In this document: positions 32,636 to 52,456 of the stretch, piece after piece
Numbering within the stretch: position 1 is the stretch's first letter
How the letters are laid out: each line of letters starts with the position of its first letter
NCBI GenBank assembly: GCA_002839675.1
Contig: PGYM01000001.1
Location: forward strand, 672,683-736,682
Direction: 5' to 3'
From: Methanomicrobiales archaeon HGW-Methanomicrobiales-1
GTDB lineage: Archaea; Halobacteriota; Methanomicrobia; Methanomicrobiales; Methanospirillaceae
DNA: 64,000 nucleotides
Notes under the pieces: generated by a model
Seen by the model: the letters and a program-made list of their open reading frames with translations, nothing else
What the model was told of the DNA's origin: nothing
The model's database searches: none
Translations under genes and position numbers: made by a program

Positions 32636-33262
32636 ATCCCCAGCACCCTGAGGGGGGTTCCCCCCACTCAAACGTACGAGGGGGGGATACCCACCCCATC
32701 TCCAAAACCCGAGGGGGGGACCCCCTCCCCCCCTGTCTTGCGCAAGACAGGGTACCCCCCCCCTTTTCCGCATCCACAAAACCCCCGCTGCGAGTGGACC
32801 CCCGTCTGAAAACCCGGGCACAGGTCCGCTTCAGCAAGGGGGGGACCCCCCCACTCAAAAGTACGAGAGGGGGTACCCTACCCCCCTATCCAAAAAATGA
32901 GGGGGGGTATACCCACCCCCTCTCCAAAAAGCGAGGGGGGGATCCCCTCCCCCCTGTCTCGCGCAAGACAGGGTACCTCCCCCCCTCCGGGCGCACATGC
33001 CCCTCCACCGCTTCGCATGGAGTCACGCCGGAGAGGGTTTTTCGTAAGCGGTTGTCCGGAGGGTGGGATACCCCCTCTCCTGCCAATGAGTGGGGGGGAC
33101 CCCCTCCCCCTCTCCAAAAAATGAGGGGGGGTCCCCTGCGTACCCTACCCCCCCTCTTGCGCAAGACAGGTTACCACCCCCTCCCCCCCACTGAAATTTA
33201 AGAGGGGGTCCCCTGGGTACCCTACCCCCCCTCTTTCCCGGGACAGGGTCCCCCCTCCCTCA
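32636..33262. repeat. Tandem GC-hairpin array, copy A
   Basis: About 630 bases made of alternating C-tracts and G-tracts. Repeated units read CCCCCTC-(TCCAAAAAATGA-like loop)-GAGGGGG, each able to fold as a GC stem with an A-rich loop. They are interspersed with a second unit built on the dyad TGTCTTGCGCAAGACA; the perfect palindrome at 32731-32752 is 22 bp long, and variants occur near 32954, 33152 and 33229, each followed by GGGTACC or GGTTACC. Open frames through it are low-complexity artefacts. G-quadruplex formation is possible. Confidence 0.8.
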
Positions 33263-36781: not shown

Positions 36782-37030
36782 CCCACCCCCCATCCACCCT
36801 AATCTACAGGGGGGTGGTACCCCCTCCAAAGTACGAGGGTGGGATACCCCCTCTCCTGCCAATGAGTGGGGGGGACCCCCTCCCCCTCTCCAAAAAATGA
36901 GGAGGGGTCCCCTGCGTACCCTACCCCCCCTCTTGCCCGGGACAGGGTACCACCCCCTCCCCCCCACTGAAATTTGAGAGGGGGTACCCCTACCTCCCTA
37001 TCCCGGGCAAAAGGGGTACCCACTCCCCGC
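36782..37030. repeat. GC-hairpin array, copy B
   Basis: Shorter version of the array at 32636-33262, with the stem-loop units CCCCCTCTCC...ATGAGGAGGGG and CCCCCCACTGAAATTTGAGAGGGGG and the dyad unit CTCTTGCCCGGGACAGGGTACC near 36928. It ends about 40 nt before the flavodoxin-like gene, which must therefore use a promoter inside or at the edge of the repeat. Confidence 0.75.
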
Positions 37031-37729: not shown

Positions 37730-37885
37730 CGGGAAGGGCTTCCGGAGGGACGTTCCCGTGGCGGGAACCCATGCGAGTTAATGACCAACCCGTAAATTAT
37801 CCGAAAAAGAATGGCCCCTCAATTTCCCTCAACATGGGTCCCCCCTCTTGTCCAAGACAGGGTACCACCCCCTCCCCCCCTTCAC
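37730..37885 (+). repeat. Composite repeat, degenerate copy D
   Basis: Starts just after the flavodoxin-like gene. It keeps TTCCGGAGGGACGTTCCCG, a GGCGGGAACC block, GTTAATGACCAA, and then the dyad unit CCCTCTTGTCCAAGACAGGGTACCACC with C-tracts (about 37841-37880). The long CCCCGCC hairpin is missing. It lies directly before the promoter of a VDLPQQ-family gene. Confidence 0.6.
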
Positions 37886-37960
37886 ATCTCCCGAAGGGCT
37901 GATCCTCCGGCCCCTCCATCCAAAAACTGCTGACCCCGTGTCCATGCAGATCCCATCCGC

Positions 37961-37968
37961 TTATATAG
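37961..37968 (+). promoter_or_regulatory. TATA box of the first VDLPQQ-family gene
   Basis: TTATATAG preceded by CATCCGC and followed 20-30 nt later by ACAACAAG. The same arrangement, CATCCGC-TTTATAT-CTCCAAACAAG, precedes the family member at 47173, and TTTAAATAT-CTCCCAACAAG precedes the one at 41179 (minus strand). The promoters therefore appear to have been duplicated with the genes. Confidence 0.55.
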
Positions 37969-38019: not shown

Positions 38020-38352
38020 ATGTCCCTTCCCGAAATGTCACCGCTTGCCCGGCTCGTATTGTTTATGATCTGCCTGTCCCTTGCCGGGACGCTCGTTGCC
38101 GGTGCGCACTATTTCGCCGTGGACCTGCCACAGCAGCGGATCGCTTTGCTGCCGCCTTCGAACGGTTATTGCGAGAATTTATGTGACTCGACGCATCTGG
38201 TTCAATTTTGTCAGGCCGAATGTAGTGCCAAATACCCCTTACAGCGATCTGAATTCTTTTCAAAAATTGCATGGTTGATGTGCTACGACTGGTGCGATGA
38301 GAATGCAGATACCAGCGATTACTTCCAGACCTGCGTGAACGAGTGTCGGTAA
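38020..38352 (+). CDS. VDLPQQ-family small membrane protein with four CX3C motifs
   Basis: A 110-residue member of a paralogous family seen only as unknown proteins. Residues 1-40 form the shared module: a short polar start, MSPLARLVLFMICLSLAGTLVAG (one membrane helix or uncleaved signal anchor), then HYFAVDLPQQ. The remaining 65 residues, presumably outside the cell, contain exactly eight cysteines in four CX3C motifs (CENLC, CQAEC, CYDWC, CVNEC). Paired CX3C motifs typically clamp helical hairpins by disulfides, as in the unrelated small Tim chaperones; a similar hairpin fold is inferred here. AGGAG at 38004-38008 precedes ATG 38020, and a TATA box lies at 37961. A decayed copy follows immediately. 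Confidence 0.8.
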   Translation: MSLPEMSPLARLVLFMICLSLAGTLVAGAHYFAVDLPQQRIALLPPSNGYCENLCDSTHLVQFCQAECSAKYPLQRSEFFSKIAWLMCYDWCDENADTSDYFQTCVNECR

Positions 38353-38361
38353 GGGAGGGCT

Positions 38362-38574
38362 GCAACGTCCCGGCACGCCACTGCCGGGGTGCACTGGTAC
38401 GTCGTCGACCTCCCGCAGCAGCATATGCAGGCCCCGCAGAACGGCGGGCCGGCTGACATCCCGGGGCAGTGCCAGCAGACCTGCCAGTCGATGCACTGCA
38501 TCGCCTTTATCCCCGGCCAGCCGGAGTGCGATGCGTTGTACGCTATCTGCCTGGCCGGTTGCGGCAGGTACTGA
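38362..38574 (+). pseudogene. VDLPQQ-family fragment lacking its membrane helix
   Basis: Ten nt after the previous gene a frame without a proper start continues the family sequence: ATAGVHWYVVDLPQQ followed by a tail with six cysteines (CQQTC, C-x9-C, CLAGC) and ends GCGRY at TGA 38572-38574. The first 25-30 residues with the membrane helix are missing, and no ribosome site precedes GTG 38389. The best explanation is a tandem duplicate truncated at its 5' end; a soluble protein starting at GTG 38389 is less likely. Confidence 0.65.
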
Positions 38575-38708
38575 AAACCCCCGGGGGATCCCCTCCCGTC
38601 CCTCCTGCTGGATCTGGTGTAATGTTTTTGGCACTCTTCAGATCAGTGATTATGGGGTTTACTGCAGAGAAAAAATATTAAAAAAAATTATGTACTAATT
38701 TTTACGAT

Positions 38709-39410
38709 TTACCCAAGTGCCCATGCGGCCTTGTTCTCCGCGTCGAGCGTGACCACAACGGCTGCCTTCCTGATATCGAAGGAGGCCGGGACTTCATAAA
38801 TGAGGAACCCGGATGCGGCATTAGCGCTACCCGGCACGACAAATCCGATCACGCCTCCATTCTCGGAATCGTAATTATAAGGCGAACCAAGACCGTTTGC
38901 GAAGGTGAAATGCGGATCGCTGATGGGATGGGATGAATAATCTTTTCCTTCATAGTTCACGACGAACTGGCCGGTGGACAGGGCACCAAGGCTGGTTGTC
39001 CCGGTATTGGTGAGCCGGGGGTACACGAACAGGAATACATTGCCTTCTGCAGGATCCTGGGTGTTGTACCCGTACTGTGTGGTGAGAAGGGTATCACCGG
39101 CTTTCTGCTGAGCGCGGGCGCTGTTGAACGTGGGATCTGTCCAGCTGTAATTCGGCAGGATTTTTGCATTGTACACGGTTAATATGCCGGTCTGGTCTGC
39201 CTTTCCAATGGTTACCGGCTGATTAAGGGCAAGCGTTCCGGGATAGGGTGTAGCGGTGGGTACGGGAGTCGGGATGGTCGCTACCGGGGTTGATACCGTA
39301 GTTGTTATCGCAGATTGTGGATTTGTATTCTGCGACGAGCTGGTGCACCCTGCGCATAAGATTAGTACCAGGGTAATACCAAGAATTCCGATAATATGGA
39401 CCGTTTTCAT
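38709..39410 (-). CDS. Secreted lipoprotein with DUF4352-like domain
   Basis: A 233-residue lipoprotein. ATG 39410 opens MKTVHIIGILGITLVLILCAGC with a lipobox, then a Thr/Pro/Ser linker. The C-terminal domain (LALNQPVTIGKADQTGILTVYNAKIL..., NVFLFVYPRLTNTGTTSL..., VPGSANAASGFLIYEVPASF) follows the immunoglobulin-like DUF4352 pattern (a conserved 'large, stable ... tNtg ... l.y.vp' order) found in many secreted lipoproteins. Function unknown. The frame extends upstream to 39470 but that would mask the signal peptide. Confidence 0.78.
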   Translation of the reverse strand: MKTVHIIGILGITLVLILCAGCTSSSQNTNPQSAITTTVSTPVATIPTPVPTATPYPGTLALNQPVTIGKADQTGILTVYNAKILPNYSWTDPTFNSARAQQKAGDTLLTTQYGYNTQDPAEGNVFLFVYPRLTNTGTTSLGALSTGQFVVNYEGKDYSSHPISDPHFTFANGLGSPYNYDSENGGVIGFVVPGSANAASGFLIYEVPASFDIRKAAVVVTLDAENKAAWALG

Positions 39411-39520
39411 ACAGTGACAATTATTATCTGCGGATAAAATGGTTTGGATAAATTGCAGGATTTGCCACATGGGTAAATTTTTTTTATTTTTTGTGGGGTT
39501 ACAGGATATTTATCAGCCCG

Positions 39521-39937
39521 TCAGATGGTCCGGTACCTGAGCGGGGATTGGGTAAGGATCTTTTCACCTTTCCGGTCTGTCTCAATGATCGATATTTTAA
39601 CGTCAGCATCGTAGGGGATAGAAACCGGTAGTTCTGGAGCCTTAATAACAAAATATCCCCTTTTGTTGAATTCAGCGGGAACCGGAAACCGGTAGTCTTT
39701 GGGATCGTCCTTTAGGGTGATCTGCACACAGTAATTCGGGCCTGCTCTCGGTATCAGCCCCTGGCCATCAACCCGCAGCGATTGATCGTGATACAGTACC
39801 GTTTCAGGATCCGGCATCTCCTGCACTTTCCTTCTCTCGTAGAGGGCAATGATCCTTAATCCGTCGTTTTCCAACCGGCTCATGCAGAGTACTGAGCTGC
39901 CCGGTTTCTTGAATTGTACGCAAATATTCACGACCAA
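39521..39937 (-). CDS. Hypothetical protein
   Basis: Not recognised. The frame encodes up to 138 residues (TTG 39937); GTG 39931 or ATG 39883 (120 residues) are alternative starts and no ribosome site decides between them. The product is soluble and looks beta-rich, with ITLKDDPKDYRFPVPAEFNKRGYFVIKAPELPVSIPYDADVKISIIETDRKG, possibly an Ig-like or C2-like sandwich. Codon use is like that of the neighbours, which supports coding. It lies alone between two lipoprotein genes on the same strand. Confidence 0.55.
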   Translation of the reverse strand: MVVNICVQFKKPGSSVLCMSRLENDGLRIIALYERRKVQEMPDPETVLYHDQSLRVDGQGLIPRAGPNYCVQITLKDDPKDYRFPVPAEFNKRGYFVIKAPELPVSIPYDADVKISIIETDRKGEKILTQSPLRYRTI

Positions 39938-40267
39938 AACGTGGAAAACCTGTTCTTAATAAAAAATGCGGATACAATACTTCACGGAATCAAACATCCC
40001 GCCCGGGTTTTCCGCCTCGCAAAGAGTGCTAAAGAAGTATATTTACGGGTTCAGTTTTCCGGGAGATTCACCCTTTCGGGGCTGAATGAACCTATTCCAA
40101 AAAAAGGGACCTGGTTTTTTTTCGAATGCGGCATAAAATTGTTACCGGATGAGTGAAACAGAGCGCAAAATGGGATCTGTTGGGAGGCACTCAAAAAAAA
40201 GGATCTTACCTTCATCCGGGGCTTTGATCCCCACAGGAAAGGTAATCCATTAAAAAATCCTGTATGC
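39938..40267. other. Intergenic region without a supported gene
   Basis: About 330 bases upstream of the hypothetical gene. A plus-strand frame (39914-40156) begins with TTG and has no ribosome site or recognisable feature. AT-rich stretches at 39955-39975 and 40110-40130 may hold promoters. I see no RNA gene or repeat. Confidence 0.35.
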
Positions 40268-40732
40268 TTATACCCGGACACCATTCCAGTACTGGGTGGT
40301 GTTCTTCAGGGCATCTTTTCCATCAGCAGTGTCTACCCAAAGACCTTTGAATGATTTGTCATCGTCGGCTTTTTCGAATACGAAGAACCCGGCATATACT
40401 CCCGTGTCATCGGTCTCGTTCCAGGTGCCGGTAATTTTGCCGTCCTGCACAATTGCTATGATGGTACCGTTGCCGTGGCCATACGATCCGGTGACGGATG
40501 AACCGGTCTGGGTGAGCGTGAGCATCTCAATGACGTCGCTGGAGCCCGGGGAACTGTAGTTTGTGTTCCAGGTGCCGTTCCATGATGCAGGTGCAGCGGT
40601 TGTGACTGCGGGCGCAGTGGTAGTCGTGGCAGACTGTGTTGCCGGTGTGGTAGCAGGTGAGCTTGTGCAGCCTGCAGCGAGAAGCATTGCGCAGATGATG
40701 CCGGCGAAGATAAGAACCAGTAATTTTCTCAT
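40268..40732 (-). CDS. Secreted lipoprotein of unknown function
   Basis: A 154-residue lipoprotein with MRKLLVLIFAGIICAMLLAAGC (signal and lipobox), an Ala/Thr-rich linker and a compact C-terminal domain. That domain reads WNGTWNTNYSS...LTLTQTGSSVTGSYGHGNGTI...GTWNETDDTGVYAGFFVFEKADDDKSFKGLW, a beta-barrel pattern seen in small exported proteins with repeated 'GxW...GTW' strands. Function unknown. It is monocistronic, with the same domain plan as the other lipoproteins in this window. Confidence 0.78.
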   Translation of the reverse strand: MRKLLVLIFAGIICAMLLAAGCTSSPATTPATQSATTTTAPAVTTAAPASWNGTWNTNYSSPGSSDVIEMLTLTQTGSSVTGSYGHGNGTIIAIVQDGKITGTWNETDDTGVYAGFFVFEKADDDKSFKGLWVDTADGKDALKNTTQYWNGVRV

Positions 40733-40891
40733 AATGATGATCTCGATATTTTACCATTTTTTTGTAATTAATCCTGCTGGAATGATCCGGGATGGCAGCT
40801 GGTAAAAACCGGGGAAAAGTTTCCATCCGCAATTGCACGGGGGAATAGACGAACCGGTAAAGAATGATCGTATGTAAAAAAAAGGATTTTT

Positions 40892-41179
40892 CTAACAGGA
40901 AGCTAAACAGGCATTATACTCCGTCAGGCAATCATTCCGGCAGGAGTTGATATCGCTGCTTTTCTTGCAATAGGGAATACAGGGATAGTACTGGGCATCG
41001 CAGTACTGGCTGCAGGTCATCAGGGTGTTGGCCGGTGCCTGCAGGTTCTGCTGCTGCGGGAGGTCGACTGCGTAATAATGGACCCCGGCAATACATGTCC
41101 CGGCAACTGATAAGCAGATCATGAAAAGCACGAGCCGGGCGAGGGGTGAATGAGGGGATCCTGGCATCGTTGTAACCAT
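40892..41179 (-). CDS. VDLPQQ-family small membrane protein with four CX3C motifs
   Basis: A 95-residue family member. The N-terminal module is PHSPLARLVLFMICLSVAGTCIAGVHYYAVDLPQQ in two parts, the membrane helix and the VDLPQQ box, followed by a 50-residue tail with eight cysteines as four CX3C motifs (CSQYC, CIPYC, CRNDC, CLASC) at spacings of 7, 8 and 6 residues. The protein ends at the last cysteine. ATG 41179 or ATG 41167 may start it. On the minus strand TTTAAATAT (41220-41228) and CTCCCAACAAG (41203-41213) match the promoter layout of the other family members. It is divergent from the 59-residue member at 41304. Confidence 0.8.
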   Translation of the reverse strand: MVTTMPGSPHSPLARLVLFMICLSVAGTCIAGVHYYAVDLPQQQNLQAPANTLMTCSQYCDAQYYPCIPYCKKSSDINSCRNDCLTEYNACLASC

Positions 41180-41303
41180 CCTGATGAATTAATCAATATT
41201 ATCTTGTTGGGAGCAAGGGATATTTAAACGGTGGGAATCTGGAAAATCCCCCCTTTTGACCCATCGCGATAATTATTATTGTTCATCAACAAAATAATTT
41301 GAT

Positions 41304-41483
41304 ATGACCAATGATCAGCCATCCGATGCTATGAAAAAACTCGTGCATTTCATAATAGCGCTTGCAATCCTCGGCACAGTCATCGCACTTGCATGGTATT
41401 TCGCTGTAGATCTCCCCCTCCAGCAGGCTGCGGCAAACCTGGCCCCGACGAACATTCCCTGCCAACCCATGTGTTTTGATTAA
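41304..41483 (+). CDS. VDLPQQ-family small membrane protein, 59 residues
   Basis: A short family member: MTNDQPSDAMKKLVHF, then a membrane helix IIALAILGTVIALAWYF, the box AVDLPLQQ and a tail ending IPCQPMCFD with a single CX3C motif. It lacks the long cysteine-rich tail of its relatives, so it may be an ancestral short form or a 3'-truncated copy. Divergent orientation to the member at 41179 with 124 nt between starts. No strong ribosome site is seen, and MKKLV at codon 10 is an alternative start. Confidence 0.65.
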   Translation: MTNDQPSDAMKKLVHFIIALAILGTVIALAWYFAVDLPLQQAAANLAPTNIPCQPMCFD

Positions 41484-41703
41484 CGGAAAGGTACGATAAA
41501 AACCAGCAGGTTTTCACCTTTTTTTTATTCCGCGGCAGATCCCCCTCACGATGAACGCCTCGCTCACCCGGCAAACCCGCCGTGTCCCGCCCATTCGTGA
41601 TGTCGTCTCCCCTGTGCGTGAGATGCCCTCCCCCCGCTCTGTGATGATAATGCTGCACAGGTAAATGGAAACCCTTATCTCTTTTCGGTCGGGGAATTTG
41701 TTT

Positions 41704-42579
41704 ATGGAAACTCCAGCCCCAACCGTGACCTGCGGCTCACCGGCCGCTCCGGCCAACCCCCGGGTCACTGTCCTGACGTTCGTTATCCTCGCATTTGCGT
41801 TCTCATCGGTATTCTGGTACCTGACTTCGATGACACCGCTCATAGCAGACAACCGGGGCATCATGATGGCATACACACTCGGGCTTATGTGGTGCCCGAC
41901 GCTCGCCGCAGTCATCACCCGGCTCTGGTTCCAGCGGAACCTGAAGGGCTTTGGTATACGGCTTGGAAAACCGGTCTGGCTTGCCATGGGAATCCTCATC
42001 CCCATCACGGTCGGACTTGTCATGTTCGGTTTTGCGTGGATCACCGGTATCGCATCGTTCAATTCCGATAATGCCCTTGTTGTCTTCTCGCTCTCATTCA
42101 TCCCCGCGTTCATGTACGCCATAGTGTTCAACATTTTTGCTGCTGCCGGGGAGGAGTTCGGCTGGCGGGGCTTCCTCGTCCCCGAACTGGGCCGGTTCTC
42201 CGGATTCACAACCATTGCGCTGATCTCCGCAGCCGTCTGGACCTCGTGGCACATCCCGATGATCCTCTTTGGTACCTACCATGGCACAGGACCCGTCTGG
42301 TATTCGCTTGCTGTTTTCATCCCTTCGGTCATGGGCGCCGGGGTCATCCTTGCCTGGCTCCGCCTCGCTTCGGGAAGTGTCTGGGTAGCGATCCTCTTCC
42401 ACGGGTTATGGAACTATTTCATCCAGGCCTTTTATCCCGCCCTCACGGTCACGACACCGGCCGGATCCGAGATGCTGGGCGAATTCGGGTGGTTTGTTGC
42501 GATCGTTTACGTTGTCCTAGCTCTCGTCTTCTGGCATTTCCGAAACCGGCTCCCGAAGCTGCCCGCAGAAGGGTTGTGA
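41704..42579 (+). CDS. CPBP-family intramembrane metalloprotease (CAAX protease-like)
   Basis: A 291-residue polytopic membrane protein of the CPBP/Rce1-like family, intramembrane glutamate proteases that process prenylated or bacteriocin-like peptides. The diagnostic motifs are GEEFGWRGFLVPEL (EE-x3-R) near residue 150 and TSWHIPMI (x2-H), with a later HGLWNY supplying the third polar motif. About eight hydrophobic segments are visible. ATG 41704 is preferred over 41665. The gene lies among VDLPQQ-family genes, so those small proteins are conceivable substrates (speculation). Confidence 0.87.
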   Translation: METPAPTVTCGSPAAPANPRVTVLTFVILAFAFSSVFWYLTSMTPLIADNRGIMMAYTLGLMWCPTLAAVITRLWFQRNLKGFGIRLGKPVWLAMGILIPITVGLVMFGFAWITGIASFNSDNALVVFSLSFIPAFMYAIVFNIFAAAGEEFGWRGFLVPELGRFSGFTTIALISAAVWTSWHIPMILFGTYHGTGPVWYSLAVFIPSVMGAGVILAWLRLASGSVWVAILFHGLWNYFIQAFYPALTVTTPAGSEMLGEFGWFVAIVYVVLALVFWHFRNRLPKLPAEGL

Positions 42580-42630
42580 TTGGCAATTATTTTTTTTTAA
42601 AACCGGTTCCTAAAAAATCTCGTAATCTTC

Positions 42631-42741
42631 ATGATTGGACTCACAATCCTCGGCGCTATCATCGCGTTCGCTTGGTATTATGCTGTGGATATCGCCCTGC
42701 AACAGGCCGCACTCCACCCGCCAGCGAACATAGTAATTTAA
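42631..42741 (+). CDS. VDLPQQ-family remnant or 36-residue membrane peptide
   Basis: From ATG 42631 the frame encodes MIGLTILGAIIAFAWYYAVDIALQQAALHPPANIVI. It aligns with the 59-residue member (IIALAILGTVIALAWYFAVDLPLQQ), and the bases upstream in the same frame (FLKNLVIF) also align with its MKKLVHF, but no start codon precedes them. The cysteine tail is absent. It is therefore either a decayed copy or a minimal form beginning at the internal ATG. Confidence 0.5.
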   Translation: MIGLTILGAIIAFAWYYAVDIALQQAALHPPANIVI

Positions 42742-42825
42742 CAGAACTAAAATGGAGTTTTAAAAAGGTATCGCGAAAGACGAGAGAAATTCCCCGTTCA
42801 TAAAATACGGCGGTAATTGCAGTTC

Positions 42826-42893
42826 TCCTGTCTCGTCCGGGACAGGGTACCATCCTCCATTCTGAAAATTGAGAGGGGAAACCCCCTCTTCCT
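42826..42893. repeat. GC-hairpin repeat, degenerate solo copy
   Basis: Contains the dyad unit CTGTCTCGTCCGGGACAGGGTACC and one stem-loop TCCATTCTGAAAATTGAGAGGGG, the same two modules that form the arrays at 32.6 and 36.8 kb, here once each. It separates the small membrane-peptide remnant from the convergent beta-lactamase-like gene. Confidence 0.6.
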
Positions 42894-42898
42894 TCTTG

Positions 42899-44524
42899 TT
42901 ACGCCCGGTTAAATATCGCGGTATTGCCATTAGCAAAGACGAGCGTCGTATTCAGCTCGCGGACCGTGCCATCCGCTCCGGTGCCGAAGATAACATTCCC
43001 CTCAAAGTCCGGACCCCATTGCGGGCACGTGGCAGTGAAGGTATTTGCATCCCAGGGGGACAGATTGTAGATCACCGCTCTCTTTCCGTACGTGAGGCTC
43101 AGGTTCCCGTTCACTTCTGCAATCATTGCCGTACCATAGACATCATTCGTGTAGGGCCCGGTGTATTCTGAAAGGGCAAGGGGCTGGGTTGGGGTTGCCG
43201 GCCGGACCGGCTTTGGGGCAAGGAGCCCGGCACTGGTCTCCTGGTACGTTTTTAAGGATTCAGCACTGGCATCCGGTCCCTCCCGGCCGAAATACCGGTT
43301 GTAGAACGCAAAGGCAAGCGCATCGGGAAGGCCCGCATCAGCTACATTGCCAAGAACCACGATCCCAACGTCCTTGCCCGGGACAAGGAGCACCATGGCA
43401 TGGTTACCTCCCGTCTCACCGTTGTGCCAGACAATGGACGGCGACCCGGCCACTTCCTGGTACATCCAGCCCTGCGTGTAGTACATCTTCGACGTACTCA
43501 TCGCATCCCCAACCGGAGTCTTCGGGCTGTGCAGGTGGGCCATGCTCTCCGGGCTGATGAGTTGCTTACCCGCATACGACCCGTTCCCCAGGTTGAATAT
43601 CGCCCAGGTGGCCATATCCTTCACGTTGGCATTGATACCGCCGGCCGGTCCCATGCTGTCGGTAAAATCATTGAACAACCAGTCGGGATCCGTGGGAACC
43701 GGCCCGGTCCTGTTGCCGGGCAGGACACCGGTTGTGTGGAGGGACACATGATTGGGTGCGGCCCTGAATGCATCATACCCGGTGGTAGCGCTGGTCATGG
43801 AGAGGGGTGCAAAGATCCGGGTCTGGAGGTTCTCCTCCCAGCTCTTCTGGCTCGTCTTTTCTATCGCTGCTGCGGTCACCAGAAATGCCAGGTTCTGGTA
43901 CGAGAATGCCGAACGGAAGCTGGTAATTGGTTCGGCATAGCGGAGGGCATGAATCATGTCGCTCCGGGAGTACCCGACTATCGGAAGGTCAGTTCCCCAG
44001 TAACCTTCAAGGCCGCTTCTCTGGGCAAGCGAGTCGGTGATCGTGTACTCTTTGGTCACCCACGGGTCTTTCATCCGGAAGTCCGGAACGTAACGGATCA
44101 CCGGATCGTTCCAGTTCATCCGGCCGCTGTCCACTTCCATGGCAGCGAGTGTGGCGGTAAACGCTTTGGATGTGGAACCTATCTCAAAGACGGTGCCGGT
44201 AGTGACCGGATCGGAACCCCCGGCGGTCTTCACACCATACCCTTTGGCAAAGACGATCTTGCCATCCTTTACAATCGCGACTGCCATGCCCGGGACATTC
44301 CAGTCCTGCCGTGCCTGCTCCGCGTAGGTATCAAAACCGGTAACGAACTCGTGGAGCTCTGTTTCATTCTGGGGATTCACCCCGGTACCGGAAAATGACT
44401 GGCCCGTGGCCGGAGACGGTGCGGGAGATACCGGGGCCGTACCCGTAGCAGCCGTACAGCCGGCAGAAAGAATCAGGAGTGCTACAATAACCAGAACAAG
44501 GATACAACCGGAAAAATCCTTCAT
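42899..44524 (-). CDS. Serine beta-lactamase-like lipoprotein (class C/DD-peptidase fold)
   Basis: A 541-residue exported lipoprotein: MKDFSGCILVLVIVALLILSAGC gives signal and lipobox. The catalytic domain is of the beta-lactamase/DD-peptidase type with the nucleophile motif STSK (in EIGSTSKAFTATLA), the second motif YQN (FSYQNLAFLV) and HNGETGG in the third-motif place. The C-terminal 100 residues (PTQPLALSEYTGPYTNDVYG...) form a DUF3471-like lipocalin-type domain common in this family. The substrate is unknown; methanogens lack murein, so a peptidase or esterase role is likely. ATG 44524 is chosen; the frame upstream crosses a repeat relic. Confidence 0.88.
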   Translation of the reverse strand: MKDFSGCILVLVIVALLILSAGCTAATGTAPVSPAPSPATGQSFSGTGVNPQNETELHEFVTGFDTYAEQARQDWNVPGMAVAIVKDGKIVFAKGYGVKTAGGSDPVTTGTVFEIGSTSKAFTATLAAMEVDSGRMNWNDPVIRYVPDFRMKDPWVTKEYTITDSLAQRSGLEGYWGTDLPIVGYSRSDMIHALRYAEPITSFRSAFSYQNLAFLVTAAAIEKTSQKSWEENLQTRIFAPLSMTSATTGYDAFRAAPNHVSLHTTGVLPGNRTGPVPTDPDWLFNDFTDSMGPAGGINANVKDMATWAIFNLGNGSYAGKQLISPESMAHLHSPKTPVGDAMSTSKMYYTQGWMYQEVAGSPSIVWHNGETGGNHAMVLLVPGKDVGIVVLGNVADAGLPDALAFAFYNRYFGREGPDASAESLKTYQETSAGLLAPKPVRPATPTQPLALSEYTGPYTNDVYGTAMIAEVNGNLSLTYGKRAVIYNLSPWDANTFTATCPQWGPDFEGNVIFGTGADGTVRELNTTLVFANGNTAIFNRA

Positions 44525-44687
44525 TATTGTGAGTTGATGGGGGCATATTTTAACCTGACGAAAAGTGGAGTAAAAAAGATGCTGGTTGAATAAAACCCGG
44601 TTAACTTCCCGGGATACTGAAATTACGGCCCTGTTCCATCTTATTTCGGGACAATGTGTGCCAGGGTATTCCGGGCAGTGTTCGATT

Positions 44688-44762
44688 GGGGGGGCCACCC
44701 CCCTCCTCAGCAAGGGTGTTCCCCTACCCCCCATCATGGCAGGGTAACCCCTTCTCAAGTGC
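44688..44762. repeat. GC-rich repeat relic
   Basis: Sequence such as GGGGGGGCCACCCCCCTCCTCAGCAAGGGTG and CCCTACCCCCCATCATGGCAGGGTAACCCC, written here in part, resembles the hairpin arrays in composition and in the ending CAGGGTAACC, but the dyad is lost. Probably an old copy. Confidence 0.45.
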
Positions 44763-44779
44763 GATCGGAACAAGGGAAT

Positions 44780-44989
44780 CTATTTGGGAGGCGCACCCGG
44801 AGGTAATTTCTGCTGGGAGAGCGGGACTCCCCCAACACCGATAGCATCAGTCGGGTACTCCCGGATATACACAAAAAATGCGGGTGGCGGAAGTTTCGTG
44901 ATCTCCGACGCGGTTTTAGTCAGTTTCTCGATCAGTTCTGCTTTTGTTTCAGGGCTTACCGCCCAAAGATCAATCGTAATTACCGGCAT
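44780..44989 (-). CDS. 4-oxalocrotonate tautomerase-like protein
   Basis: A 69-residue protein of the tautomerase superfamily with the catalytic N-terminal proline exposed after Met removal (MPVITIDLW). The following helix (SPETKAELIEKLTKTASEITK) and the strand FVYIREYPTDAIGVGG are typical of 4-OT/DmpI subunits. Family members isomerise keto-enol substrates; the natural one here is unknown. It starts 18 nt after the aldo/keto reductase stop and is probably the last gene of the HxlR-reductase-tautomerase operon. Confidence 0.85.
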   Translation of the reverse strand: MPVITIDLWAVSPETKAELIEKLTKTASEITKLPPPAFFVYIREYPTDAIGVGGVPLSQQKLPPGAPPK

Positions 44990-45007
44990 AGTAATACCTC
45001 AGTTTTT

Positions 45008-46165
45008 TCATTTCCCGAATAAATCCCCAACATCCTGTAAATATTCCCGGATGGGAAGATGCTGCGGACATTTGTCCTCGCACTCCCCGCACAGGACACA
45101 ACAGGAGGCAAACCCCGGAATTCCCCCGGAAAACGAACCGTCGAGGGCCCAGAGGTATACGCCCGCTGCTTTCTCCTTTGCCTCGTAGGTGTACGCCTGG
45201 TTGTAATACATGAAGCATGAGGGAATATCAACGCCGTTTGGGCACGGCATGCAGTAGCGGCAGCCGGTGCACGGGATCTTCACCCGGGAGGCAAACGTCT
45301 CCCGCATTGTTTCAACAACGGCAAGTTCTCCGGGTGAGAGAGAATTCGCCCTGCCCTGCTCTGCACTGGCAAGGTTCTCTTTAACCTGCTCTATTGCATT
45401 CATACCGGAGAGCACGACCGTGACTTCCGGGTGGTTCCAGACCCAGCGAAGTCCCCATTCCGACGGAGTGCGCCGGACCGGGGCGCTCTGGATATGCTCG
45501 TGGATTGCGGGGACGTCTCCCGAGAGGAGACCGCCCCGGAGCGGTTCCATGACAACGATGCCAAGGCCCTGTTCCGCTGCATACCTGAGCCCCTGCGTGC
45601 CAGCCTGGTACTCTTCGTCCATGTAATTGTACTGGATCTGGGCAAAGGTCCACTCATAGGCATCGACGATCTCCTTAAAGACCGGGAACTGGTCGTGGAA
45701 AGAGAACGCAGGGTACCGGATCCGGCCGTCGGCCCGGGCACTGTCAAGGAATTCAAGTACGCCGAGTTTGGAAAGGTTCTCCCATGTTTCGCCACCCAGC
45801 CCGTGGAGGAGATAGAAATCGATATGATCCGTTGCGAGCTTTGCAAGCTGTTCATCCAGGTACCGGCCCATGTCCTCCCGGCTGGTGACAAGCCAGCTCG
45901 GGAGCTTGGTGGCGAGAAAAACCCTGTCGCGGTACCCGTCGCCAAGCGCCTTCCCGACAACCACCTCGCTTTCCCCGTTGTGGTACGGGTAAGCCGTATC
46001 GATATAATTGACCCCGCCGTCGATGGCGGTGCGGATCAGGGCGGTTGCCTTTGGCACATCGATCTTTCCTCCAGCCTGCTGACCCTCTTCAGGAGGTAAC
46101 CGCATGCACCCGAAACCGAGGATAGATATCTCGTGATTAACCTGGGGGAACTTCCTGTACAGCAT
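45008..46165 (-). CDS. Aldo/keto reductase with C-terminal ferredoxin-like Fe-S domain
   Basis: A 385-residue oxidoreductase. The TIM-barrel AKR part begins MLYRKFPQVNHEISILGFGCMRLP and includes IDTAYPYHNGESEVVVGKAL, the catalytic Tyr/Lys region, and YLLHGLGGETW. The C-terminal 90 residues carry two cysteine motifs, CTGCRYCMPCPNGVDIP and CVLCGECEDKCPQHLPI, binding one or two [4Fe-4S] clusters, as in the 'aldo/keto reductase, ferredoxin-type' proteins frequent in anaerobes. Electrons may come from ferredoxin rather than NADPH (inference). ATG 46165 is chosen over the longer frame. An HxlR regulator gene lies 139 nt upstream. Confidence 0.92.
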   Translation of the reverse strand: MLYRKFPQVNHEISILGFGCMRLPPEEGQQAGGKIDVPKATALIRTAIDGGVNYIDTAYPYHNGESEVVVGKALGDGYRDRVFLATKLPSWLVTSREDMGRYLDEQLAKLATDHIDFYLLHGLGGETWENLSKLGVLEFLDSARADGRIRYPAFSFHDQFPVFKEIVDAYEWTFAQIQYNYMDEEYQAGTQGLRYAAEQGLGIVVMEPLRGGLLSGDVPAIHEHIQSAPVRRTPSEWGLRWVWNHPEVTVVLSGMNAIEQVKENLASAEQGRANSLSPGELAVVETMRETFASRVKIPCTGCRYCMPCPNGVDIPSCFMYYNQAYTYEAKEKAAGVYLWALDGSFSGGIPGFASCCVLCGECEDKCPQHLPIREYLQDVGDLFGK

Positions 46166-46304
46166 CCTCTCACCATTCTCTAATTTACGATGACTCCGCG
46201 GAGATAAAAAGGGATCAGGGACAAAAATGTCAGCAAGCCAGGGACAAAAAGTCTGCAGGCCCGGCCGGCAGAACATCCGATACCGGCGCGAGGGAAAAGC
46301 GCGG

Positions 46305-46667
46305 TTAGTGGCTCTCGTTGATCTGGTCTGCCAGTTCCTCATCTGCCCAGTTTTTCAGCGACATGAGGAGCGGGATGATGGTCTGCCCCCGCGCCGTCAG
46401 GGCATACTCGACGCGGGGAGGCATGCCGGGATATTCCGTGCGGGAGACCAGGCGATCTGCTTCAAGGGCCCTGAGCTGCCTGGTGAGCATTTTTGGGGAG
46501 ATCGCGGGCAGTTTTTCCTGGATTGCCCCGAAACGGAGCGGGGTTTCCTTGATCTTCCAGAGAATATGCGGTTTCCATTTCCCGCCAATCACATCCATTG
46601 CCGCCTCGAGCGAACAGACGTACATCCGTTTTTTGGGCATATACCGGTATTCCGGGTGCCGATACAT
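46305..46667 (-). CDS. HxlR-family transcriptional regulator
   Basis: A 120-residue winged-helix regulator. The HxlR signature is clear: CSLEAAMDVIGGKWKPHILWKI with the sensing Cys near the N-terminus, LRFGAIQEKLPAISPKMLTRQLRALE (recognition helix) and YPGMPPRVEYALTARG (wing). HxlR proteins often respond to aldehydes or oxidants through the conserved cysteine. Its position directly upstream of, and in the same direction as, the reductase and tautomerase genes suggests it controls them. Confidence 0.92.
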   Translation of the reverse strand: MYRHPEYRYMPKKRMYVCSLEAAMDVIGGKWKPHILWKIKETPLRFGAIQEKLPAISPKMLTRQLRALEADRLVSRTEYPGMPPRVEYALTARGQTIIPLLMSLKNWADEELADQINESH

Positions 46668-46801
46668 TAACGGTTGCGTTTTGTTTTTCCCGAGTCCGGG
46701 TTTTTACCGGAACGGTAATGATGCATCGGGAGCGGCATGACAACACCCTACCTGATTCTTTTATATTCATAGAAAAGATAAAATTCTGTGAGTTGAGAGA
46801 C

Positions 46802-47041
46802 ATGGAGACAGAAACATCTGAGCAGGGCATGAAAAACTGGTGCGGATCCAAAACTCACATGATGAAGCATATGTGTCACCACGGGTCGGGCGGTGCACTG
46901 TATGGACTGGGCTTTTTAGGGGCCCTCTGGTATTACCTCACGACGGCAACAAGCCTGCTGGGGGGAATCCTGGGAGTCATTAAAGCGATTCTCTGGCCTG
47001 CTTTTCTGGTGTATGGATTGTTAAAGTCCCTTGGCATGTGA
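46802..47041 (+). CDS. Small membrane protein with Cys/His/Met-rich N-terminus
   Basis: A 79-residue protein from ATG 46802. The N-terminal part has a potential metal-binding stretch (NWCGSKTHMMKHMCHHGSGG: two Cys, three His, three Met). Two hydrophobic segments follow (ALYGLGFLGALWYYLTTATS and GGILGVIKAILWPAFLVYGLL). Similar small two-helix proteins are widespread in anaerobic prokaryotes without known function. A TATA-like TTTTATATTC lies at 46759-46768. The frame upstream to 46598 overlaps the divergent HxlR gene and is not used. Confidence 0.72.
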   Translation: METETSEQGMKNWCGSKTHMMKHMCHHGSGGALYGLGFLGALWYYLTTATSLLGGILGVIKAILWPAFLVYGLLKSLGM

Positions 47042-47071
47042 AGCAGAAAAGGCATCTGAAATTTCAGTGGT

Positions 47072-47106
47072 GCACAACCCCCCCTCTTGCCCGGGAATAT
47101 TTCCCG
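47072..47106. repeat. GC-repeat relic before a VDLPQQ-family promoter
   Basis: CCCCCCCTCTTGCCCGGGA matches the first half of the repeat's dyad unit (compare 36928-36951), then diverges. As at 37841-37880, it lies just upstream of the promoter of a VDLPQQ-family gene. Confidence 0.5.
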
Positions 47107-47125
47107 TTTTTCCAAATCATCCGCG

Positions 47126-47151
47126 TTTATATGCCCGTCACTCCAAACAAG
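47126..47151 (+). promoter_or_regulatory. Promoter of a VDLPQQ-family gene pair
   Basis: TTTATAT (47126-47132), preceded by CATCCGCG and followed at 47141-47151 by CTCCAAACAAG, resembles the upstream regions of the family genes at 38020 and 41179. Transcription would start near 47155, about 18 nt before the TTG start. Confidence 0.55.
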
Positions 47152-47172
47152 TTATAACGAGGTTGGTTTTTT

Positions 47173-47508
47173 TTGTCTTCAACTCCTCACGAAAGATCGC
47201 CGCTCGCCCGGCTCGTATTGTTCATAATCTGCTTATCGGTAGCCGGTACCCTGGCAGCCGGGGTGCATTATGCCCTTATCGATCTCCCGCAACAGCAGGA
47301 TGTGAAGGTGCCGGTCAATTCTGCCTGTTCATACGCCATGTTTGACTCCTGTGCACGGTATGGAGACATGTGTTACGAATGTATCGCCTTAGGCGAAACT
47401 TCCTTTGGATGCGAGATCTCAGGAAGTGAAAAAATTGCAATCTGCAGTTCCCCGTATCAACCAAAGAAGGAATGTGACCTTTACACAGGTCTCTGCATAG
47501 AGGTCTGA
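47173..47508 (+). CDS. VDLPQQ-family small membrane protein with eight-cysteine tail
   Basis: A 111-residue family member starting at TTG 47173, in the position equivalent to the ATG of its relatives and with GAGGTTGG upstream. The module is RSPLARLVLFIICLSVAG, TLAAGVHYALIDLPQQ, followed by a tail with eight cysteines. Here the spacing differs (C-x7-C-x6-C-x2-C-x9-C-x10-C-x9-C-x6-C), so CX3C motifs are absent though the number is the same as in the 38020 and 41179 proteins. A second family gene follows 8 nt downstream. Confidence 0.75.
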   Translation: MSSTPHERSPLARLVLFIICLSVAGTLAAGVHYALIDLPQQQDVKVPVNSACSYAMFDSCARYGDMCYECIALGETSFGCEISGSEKIAICSSPYQPKKECDLYTGLCIEV

Positions 47509-47516
47509 TAGATACC

Positions 47517-47798
47517 ATGATGGCATCCCCGCCCCCCACACAATCACCCCTTTTACGGCTCGTGCTCTTTATGATTTGCTTATCGGTCGCCGGAAGCTGT
47601 CTTGCGGGATTACATTATGCTGTCGTGGACCGGCCGGCACAACTTCAGGCACTGCACCCGCCAGTGAATTCCGGGGATCCGGCATTTACCACAACGGGTT
47701 TTACCTTTTGGGACTGGTTGTTCGGTCCACTGAATGGGAAGAATTGTAATATACGGATCGATTCTGCGGGTAACTGGCATTTCGCGTGCGATCCTTAA
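47517..47798 (+). CDS. VDLPQQ-family small membrane protein, divergent tail
   Basis: A 93-residue member with the module QSPLLRLVLFMICLSVAGSCLAG and LHYAVVDRPAQ, in which the VDLPQQ box is altered to VDRPAQ. The tail (HPPVNSGDPAFTTTGFTFWDWLFGPLNGKNC...HFACDP) has only two cysteines and is aromatic-rich. It starts 8 nt after the preceding family gene, so both are translated from one transcript. Function unknown; one membrane helix with an external tail is predicted. Confidence 0.75.
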   Translation: MMASPPPTQSPLLRLVLFMICLSVAGSCLAGLHYAVVDRPAQLQALHPPVNSGDPAFTTTGFTFWDWLFGPLNGKNCNIRIDSAGNWHFACDP

Positions 47799-52254: not shown

Positions 52255-52456
52255 TTTTCAACTGCGATGGACCCCACCGTTCCCGAAGGGATTCCCCGCG
52301 GCGGTTCTGGTGCCTTGGCAAAGTGAGAAATTTTCCCGCCCCGATGTACCTCAAAGAGACCTTGGGGCGGGAAAACCTCGCAGGATAATGGACAATCCTG
52401 AAAATTTAAAAAAAAATGGGTGGTACCCTGTCCACATTACCCGGGGGGAAATCTAC
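52255..52456 (+). repeat. Composite repeat, structured part, copy C
   Basis: Located 75 nt after tfb. It retains CACCGTTCCCGAAGGGATTCCCCGCGGCGG in part and a perfect 12-bp stem, TTTTCCCGCCCC at 52331-52342 with GGGGCGGGAAAA at 52364-52375, enclosing a 21-nt loop. Loop bases differ from copies A and B but the stem is kept. Downstream, GGGTGGTACCCTGTCC (about 52421-52436) is the dyad-unit ending in inverted orientation. The stem could terminate tfb transcripts. Confidence 0.65.

Follow-up and report, generated by a model that had tools for sequence, protein, structure and literature searches.

Within a 64,000-nucleotide stretch of the genome of Methanomicrobiales archaeon HGW-Methanomicrobiales-1 (contig PGYM01000001.1, positions 672,683 to 736,682), here called the window, seven loci (38020, 38362, 41179 on the minus strand, 41304, 42631, 47173 and 47517) were reported in a sequence-only reading to encode small proteins with a common N-terminal module and dissimilar tails. 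The module was found at 7/7 loci with E-values well clear of chance; five of the genes are intact, and those at 38362 and 42631 are remnants truncated at the N-terminus. The cysteine counts of that reading were exact as well: three full-length members (38020, 41179 and 47173) have eight tail cysteines each, and two of these (38020 and 41179) arrange them as four CX3C motifs. The genes are listed below, with tails (frameworks) given as the gaps between successive cysteines.

38020 to 38352, plus strand: long-form member of 110 residues, anchor module followed by a tail of four CX3C motifs (3-8-3-19-3-12-3), eight tail cysteines
38362 to 38574, plus strand: truncated long-form copy without the membrane helix, tail 3-4-9-6-3
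40892 to 41167 or 41179, minus strand: long-form member of 91 or 95 residues, palindromic 3-6-3-8-3-6-3 tail (eight cysteines), predicted helical hairpin
41304 to 41483, plus strand: intact short-form member of 59 residues, module and a nine-residue end with one CX3C
42610 to 42741, plus strand: short-form remnant, N-terminus lost, sole internal ATG at 42631
47173 to 47508, plus strand: long-form member of 111 residues, TTG start, eight tail cysteines without CX3C (7-6-2-9-10-9-6)
47517 to 47798, plus strand: intact long-form member of 92-93 residues, two tail cysteines

The module comprises 48 residues, with a short start of the SPLARLV or SDAxKNLV type, one membrane helix, the box H/W-Y-x-V-D-L-P-Q-Q and a closing P-x-N, and is conserved on both sides of the membrane helix. 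Two forms of family members can be distinguished. Short members (~50-60 residues, MTExQxSDAxKNLVxFIIALAILGTIIALAWYFAVDLPxQQAALHAPAN) have next to nothing beyond the module and are arranged in arrays (L152, L143), while long members start with SPLARLVLFMICLS and continue for 20-60 residues after P-x-N. In the remnant at 42631 the first ~9 codons are gone and the frame opens after a stop as NRFLKNLV; in the copy at 38362 the coding sequence of the membrane helix is lost and the module begins at AGVHWY. The latter copy lies directly 3' of the TAA of gene 38020 and in the same frame, so that positions 38020-38574 form one reading frame with two tails split by a single stop codon, the second tail being preceded by a partial module. 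Either the arrangement is the scar of a deletion, or it represents a read-through fusion, which would be rare. A cysteine inside the membrane helix (MICLS in the long form) is present in 53/64 long and 6/23 short members; dimer formation, lipidation and a redox relay are candidate roles for it.

Using a single member as the query, we found the module at 17 places of the same genome, with paralogue E-values down to 1e-16. A module profile retrieved 126 matches in 20 of the 39 genomes of the genus Methanoregula (most copies at E-values of 1e-17 to 1e-29), the matching genomes being Methanoregula or Methanomicrobiales metagenome-assembled genomes. The module is present in other species, and its absence outside this strain, which the sequence-only reading had named as a refutation, is thereby contradicted. 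Across the order, matches came from 26 of 232 genomes, representing 6 of 40 genera, nearly all from one taxonomic family; a few related genera have the module, and the tail-less form prevails there. All ten matching genomes of a phylum sample of 394 also belong to that taxonomic family. For the window proteins, Pfam and NCBIfam yielded no match above noise and PADLOC none at all, and the weak PHROG matches were below threshold and limited to the short form. An origin of the family from viruses or plasmids was rejected, as no relatives were detected among viral contigs, phages and plasmids. No publication on the family was found in the searchable literature, from which most subscription journals were excluded. 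The remark of the sequence-only reading that it knew no description of such a family in methanogens is borne out for the databases searched.

The tails are not noise: their cysteines show real order. Cysteine makes up 13.4% of long-tail residues compared to 1.6% in neighboring open reading frames (ORFs). An even number of cysteines was observed in 41 of 46 distinct frameworks with at least three cysteines (p 2e-8) and, after near-identical frameworks were merged, in 29 of 34 groups (p 2e-5). The CX3C spacing was counted 134 times where 35 would be expected, and CX6C 49 times where 23 would be. Many gap orders are mirror-symmetric (3-6-3-n-3-6-3, 3-6-n-6-3, 3-n-3, 2-3-n-3-3, 2-3-3-14-3-3-2). 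For the 37 distinct frameworks with at least six cysteines, the summed mirror mismatch was 212, while 5000 shuffles of gap order gave a mean of 346 and a minimum of 273. An antiparallel hairpin stapled across its helices demands just such mirror symmetry. Within each half of a tail, the cysteines keep to a single face of a helix more than they would if placed at random (mean resultant 0.69 versus 0.50). Kinship of the members makes the p-values of these tests optimistic, but the effect persists when frameworks are collapsed. The module, the frameworks with their parity and palindromes, and the conservation described below are thus established at the level of sequence.

Structure prediction by AlphaFold pointed in the same direction. 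In the 40892-41167 protein, helices were predicted at residues 8-34, 49-60, 63-67 and 73-90, the tail having a predicted local distance difference test score (pLDDT) of ~80-87. For a six-cysteine member from L176, helices were placed at 10-42, 54-64 and 70-80 (tail pLDDT ~67-82). The tails of both models are predicted helix-turn-helices. The sequence-only reading had guessed at helical hairpins resembling those of the small Tim proteins, and this guess is supported by the frameworks together with the predicted folds.

Selection and cysteine pairing were analyzed in 21 pairs of orthologues or near-orthologues. A tail cysteine nearly always has its counterpart in the other protein of the pair (4/4 to 9/9 paired in most pairs), tail length is also kept between species, and the ratio of nonsynonymous to synonymous substitution rates (dN/dS) of the tails is mostly 0.1-0.6. 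The minus-strand 40892-41179 member has an orthologue, L105:2394, with 8/8 tail cysteines paired and a dN/dS of 0.32, and the truncated copy at 38362 (38380) has an intact one, L090:5324, with 6/6 paired and a tail dN/dS of 0.18. The exceptions are two distant pairs: gene 47173 and its relative L102:3254 (six cysteines paired, two unpaired) and gene 38020 and its probable orthologue in L086 (six paired, four unpaired). A dN/dS above 1 was obtained for a single tail pair (L098-L103, 1.77, with few synonymous changes), and positive selection on tails was otherwise not supported. The tails are mostly under purifying selection with their cysteine positions kept, which contradicts another refuting outcome named in the sequence-only reading, namely tails showing no selection on cysteine positions.

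The nearest module neighbor of a member had the same tail framework in 19/37 cases (5.3 expected, shuffle maximum 15) and came from the same genome in 6/37 cases (3.0 expected, shuffle maximum 10). Since module similarity tracks tail framework more than genome, the heads, as we call the tails beyond the module, are old lineages and not swapped cassettes, and shuffling of tails between modules was rejected as the main process. Tail profiles matched only module-bearing genes in the genus and the order, and no tail cassettes without a module were found there. Truncated or stop-containing copies, several of them beside intact ones (window 38362, L154:5665, L109:2224, L144, L164), indicate that the family evolves by birth-and-death.

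These results make an architecture of an anchor with hairpin-type tails well supported by computation, and we consider anchored, disulfide-stapled helical-hairpin heads on a common mount the best reading of the family as a whole, with a probability of roughly 0.5. According to this reading, the members would be paralogous small single-span membrane proteins whose module inserts with its N-terminus inside and its C-terminus outside (N-in/C-out) and remains as an anchor and common docking part. In most long members, a head of 30-60 residues would stand on the outer face of the membrane. Each of two antiparallel helices would have its cysteines lined up on one face, and these would pair across, forming two, three or four staples and thus a rigid hairpin; in a minority of members the head is of another even-cysteine type, is a PEGA-type or phosphatase-like domain, or is missing. 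Each head may then present a conserved, distinct binding or inhibitory surface beside the membrane, each paralogue lineage having a different target, with envelope proteins, extracellular proteases and competitors' molecules as candidates; a genome would thus maintain several heads that all use the same standard mount. Binding or inhibition is the least certain part of this proposal. Tentatively, and with distinctly less confidence than in the architecture, we suggest that the heads form a lineage-specific, independently evolved archaeal repertoire of tethered, surface-mounted, alpha-hairpinin-like units, each recognizing or inhibiting a different extracellular molecule.

The N-in/C-out topology is favored because basic residues are more frequent before the membrane helix than after it, the box that follows it is acidic, and some heads are of the PEGA type. 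PEGA-type domains are normally extracytoplasmic. Both this orientation and the pairing of the cysteines into disulfides are inferred. Disulfides outside the cytoplasm have been documented for sheathed members of the same order, and these relatives possess thiol-exchange proteins (PMC11576556); sheath proteins themselves are reported absent from Methanoregula, and those of Methanospirillum and Methanolinea, which are also disulfide-linked, are large amyloid ring proteins (PMC11576556).

Several observations weigh against stapled, outward-facing hairpins. The charge bias is modest: lysine and arginine are commoner before the helix than after it in 45 members, with the reverse in 18. The predicted template modeling scores of both models are low (0.37 for the 40892-41167 protein and 0.30 for the L176 member), as one would expect of a helix attached through a loose linker, and Foldseek returned no significant structural match. 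Frameworks are not hairpin-like in 17/65 long members, and 11/65 have fewer than four tail cysteines. Among the 39 genus genomes, VKOR is present in none (0/39), a DsbA-like thioredoxin in only three (the genome studied here included) and DsbD_TM in 11, the genome studied here having two. With VKOR absent and the distributions of the other two not matching that of the family, co-occurrence was rejected for all three and no disulfide oxidant was identified. Finally, no specific gene recurs among 600 neighboring ORFs, which leaves no hint of a target; a conserved operon partner was likewise sought among them and not found.

The lack of a dedicated oxidant is consistent with another use of the cysteines, namely the handling of metal: CX3C-lined helices on the surface of the cell would bind Cu(I), zinc or a different soft metal. 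The bacterial copper storage proteins (Csp) have CX3C-lined helices in common with the archaeal tails, and Csp3 binds Cu(I) at eight of its sites by CX3C motifs on one helix face (PMC5171941); even cysteine numbers are also expected from two-thiolate sites. However, parity is even in frameworks without CX3C too (7-7-12-5-0, 6-7-13-7-8), the tails vary in all but their cysteines, a variety that a store of metal does not require, and metal-transport genes are not recurrent nearby. Csp3 is a cytosolic four-helix-bundle tetramer, and in the Csp bundle the cysteines face the core, whereas the archaeal tails (30-60 residues) are modeled, as monomers, as two short predicted helices. Among the rivals, metal binding is the strongest for the members with CX3C, but not for the even-cysteine frameworks without CX3C; for the family as a whole we regard it as unlikely.

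Slightly less probable still is the release of the tails as antimicrobial or toxin-like peptides, by the logic of conotoxin and alpha-hairpinin precursors, with the module serving as a leader cut at or near P-x-N. A constant N-terminus joined to a variable cysteine-rich C-terminus, a conserved P-x-N at the exact border of module and tail, and hairpin heads like those of plant defense peptides (PMC7191063) would all fit. Yet the short members, with hardly anything after P-x-N, conserve it equally well, most tails are acidic, at a mean net charge of -1.9, neither a protease nor an exporter or immunity gene is recurrent among the neighboring ORFs, some heads are large domains, and most tails are under purifying selection. 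With nothing to release in short members, no processing genes and acidic heads, the release of peptides is less likely than their retention. The suggestion that the layout is one of diversified effectors or antigens fared similarly: its description of a conserved anchor with a variable, disulfide-type tail stood, while the effector or antigen part was not supported, as each tail is an old, unshuffled lineage common to orthologues of other species, selection on the tails is mostly purifying, most of them are acidic, and neither partner genes nor genes for immunity or secretion turn up repeatedly nearby.

We give a comparably small chance to a function that resides in the membrane module itself, for instance in a membrane complex to which the protein belongs as a small accessory subunit, the tails being largely dispensable add-ons of some lineages. 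The tail-less short form, found in arrays and prevailing outside the genus, the conservation of the module at both sides of the helix and the several long members with zero tail cysteines would be explained in this way, but not the cysteines and length of tails kept across species, with dN/dS mostly below 0.65, nor the strong order of their frameworks. Pilin- or archaellin-like subunits, which also combine a conserved hydrophobic N-terminal helix with a variable globular end, are very improbable and were already disfavored, since the window proteins had no Pfam or NCBIfam pilin match, neither a basic class III signal peptide nor a processing site of the G/A-x-E type was apparent by eye in the 119 listed members, the starts are acidic or neutral (for example, MTEAQSSDAMKNL) and the genes are solitary.

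Plant alpha-hairpinins consist of two antiparallel helices and a loop, with two CX3C motifs paired symmetrically, C1-C4 and C2-C3 (PMC7191063). Their framework, C X3 C Xn C X3 C, is matched exactly by the 3-9-3 and 3-20-3 tails of a subset (L095, L137, L081, L150), whereas the rest of the family shows different frameworks or would form three or four staples. Unlike plant alpha-hairpinins, which are cut out of precursors, the archaeal proteins are acidic, with a predicted N-terminal membrane helix as anchor and up to four putative staples. Homology is not indicated, as neither Pfam nor a profile search against solved structures gave a match; weak, non-significant Foldseek matches include Nigellin-1.1 and the Jug r 2 and Ara h 1 leader peptides, three chains of the alpha-hairpinin type. 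The mitochondrial small Tim proteins likewise form twin-CX3C helix-loop-helices with C1-C4 and C2-C3 disulfides in an oxidizing compartment (PMC3759932). These are soluble, hexameric, two-staple proteins conserved across eukaryotes, whereas the archaeal family is predicted to be membrane-anchored and is variable, with the twin-CX3C framework in some members and a fold that is a prediction. The models suggest that the family may work like a tethered alpha-hairpinin or twin-CX3C protein while being a member of neither, by convergence. The principle of the fold is known; its archaeal, anchored, multi-staple and multi-paralogue version appears to be undescribed in the libraries and literature searchable.

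Unusual heads include a coiled coil (L112), a Gly-rich stretch (L168), carboxypeptidase-regulatory/PEGA domains (L121 and, by alignment, L140) and a phosphatase-like domain. In the last case (L101:2524-3711 and L114:1448-2629), the module is fused to a domain of ~340 residues with the motif HCTHGSDRTGM; nine cysteines are kept between the two species, and the match to DSPc (E 1e-6) lies under the curated cut-off of that family. In the complete genome L173 (2,542,943 bases) one copy has a degenerate module and an intact palindromic 3-6-14-6-3 tail, which suggests that a head can outlive the anchor consensus. Outside the genus, L157 (genus g14) has a perfect 2-3-3-14-3-3-2 tail with eight cysteines, and L164 (genus g15) has a 2-3-11-3-4 tail with a stop codon between tail and membrane helix.

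Upstream of three window genes, TATA-like boxes are located 47-61 nucleotides from the start:

37960 to 37967, plus strand: TATA-box-like CTTATATA, 60 nucleotides upstream of 38020
41221 to 41228, minus strand: TATA-box-like TTTAAATA, upstream of the 41167 start
47126 to 47133, plus strand: TATA-box-like TTTATATG, upstream of 47173

Such boxes (7 or 8 of 8 positions) precede 42% of the family, nearly always 45-65 nucleotides before the start, compared to 6% when upstream sequences are shuffled; this supports the view that the genes are probably real and individually transcribed. No RNA families or tRNAs were found in the window. The element ACAGGGTACCACCC, which looks like a dispersed intergenic repeat, has eight window copies at no more than two mismatches (0.4 expected), some of them adjoining family members:

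32747-32760, 32968-32981, 33166-33179, 36812-36825, 36942-36955, 37857-37870, 42842-42855 and 52418-52431: copies of ACAGGGTACCACCC

It is mainly in plants and animals that repertoires of cysteine-framework peptides are known. If our proposal is true, a strictly anaerobic methanogen genus, with up to 17 copies of one anchor bearing many different, conserved even-cysteine heads, evolved the same design independently, as an archaeal counterpart of those repertoires that is tethered instead of secreted. It would also raise the question of extracellular disulfide oxidation in mesophilic methanogens, as the distribution of the usual enzymes does not follow that of the family, and dozens of small genes that are blank in current libraries would gain names.

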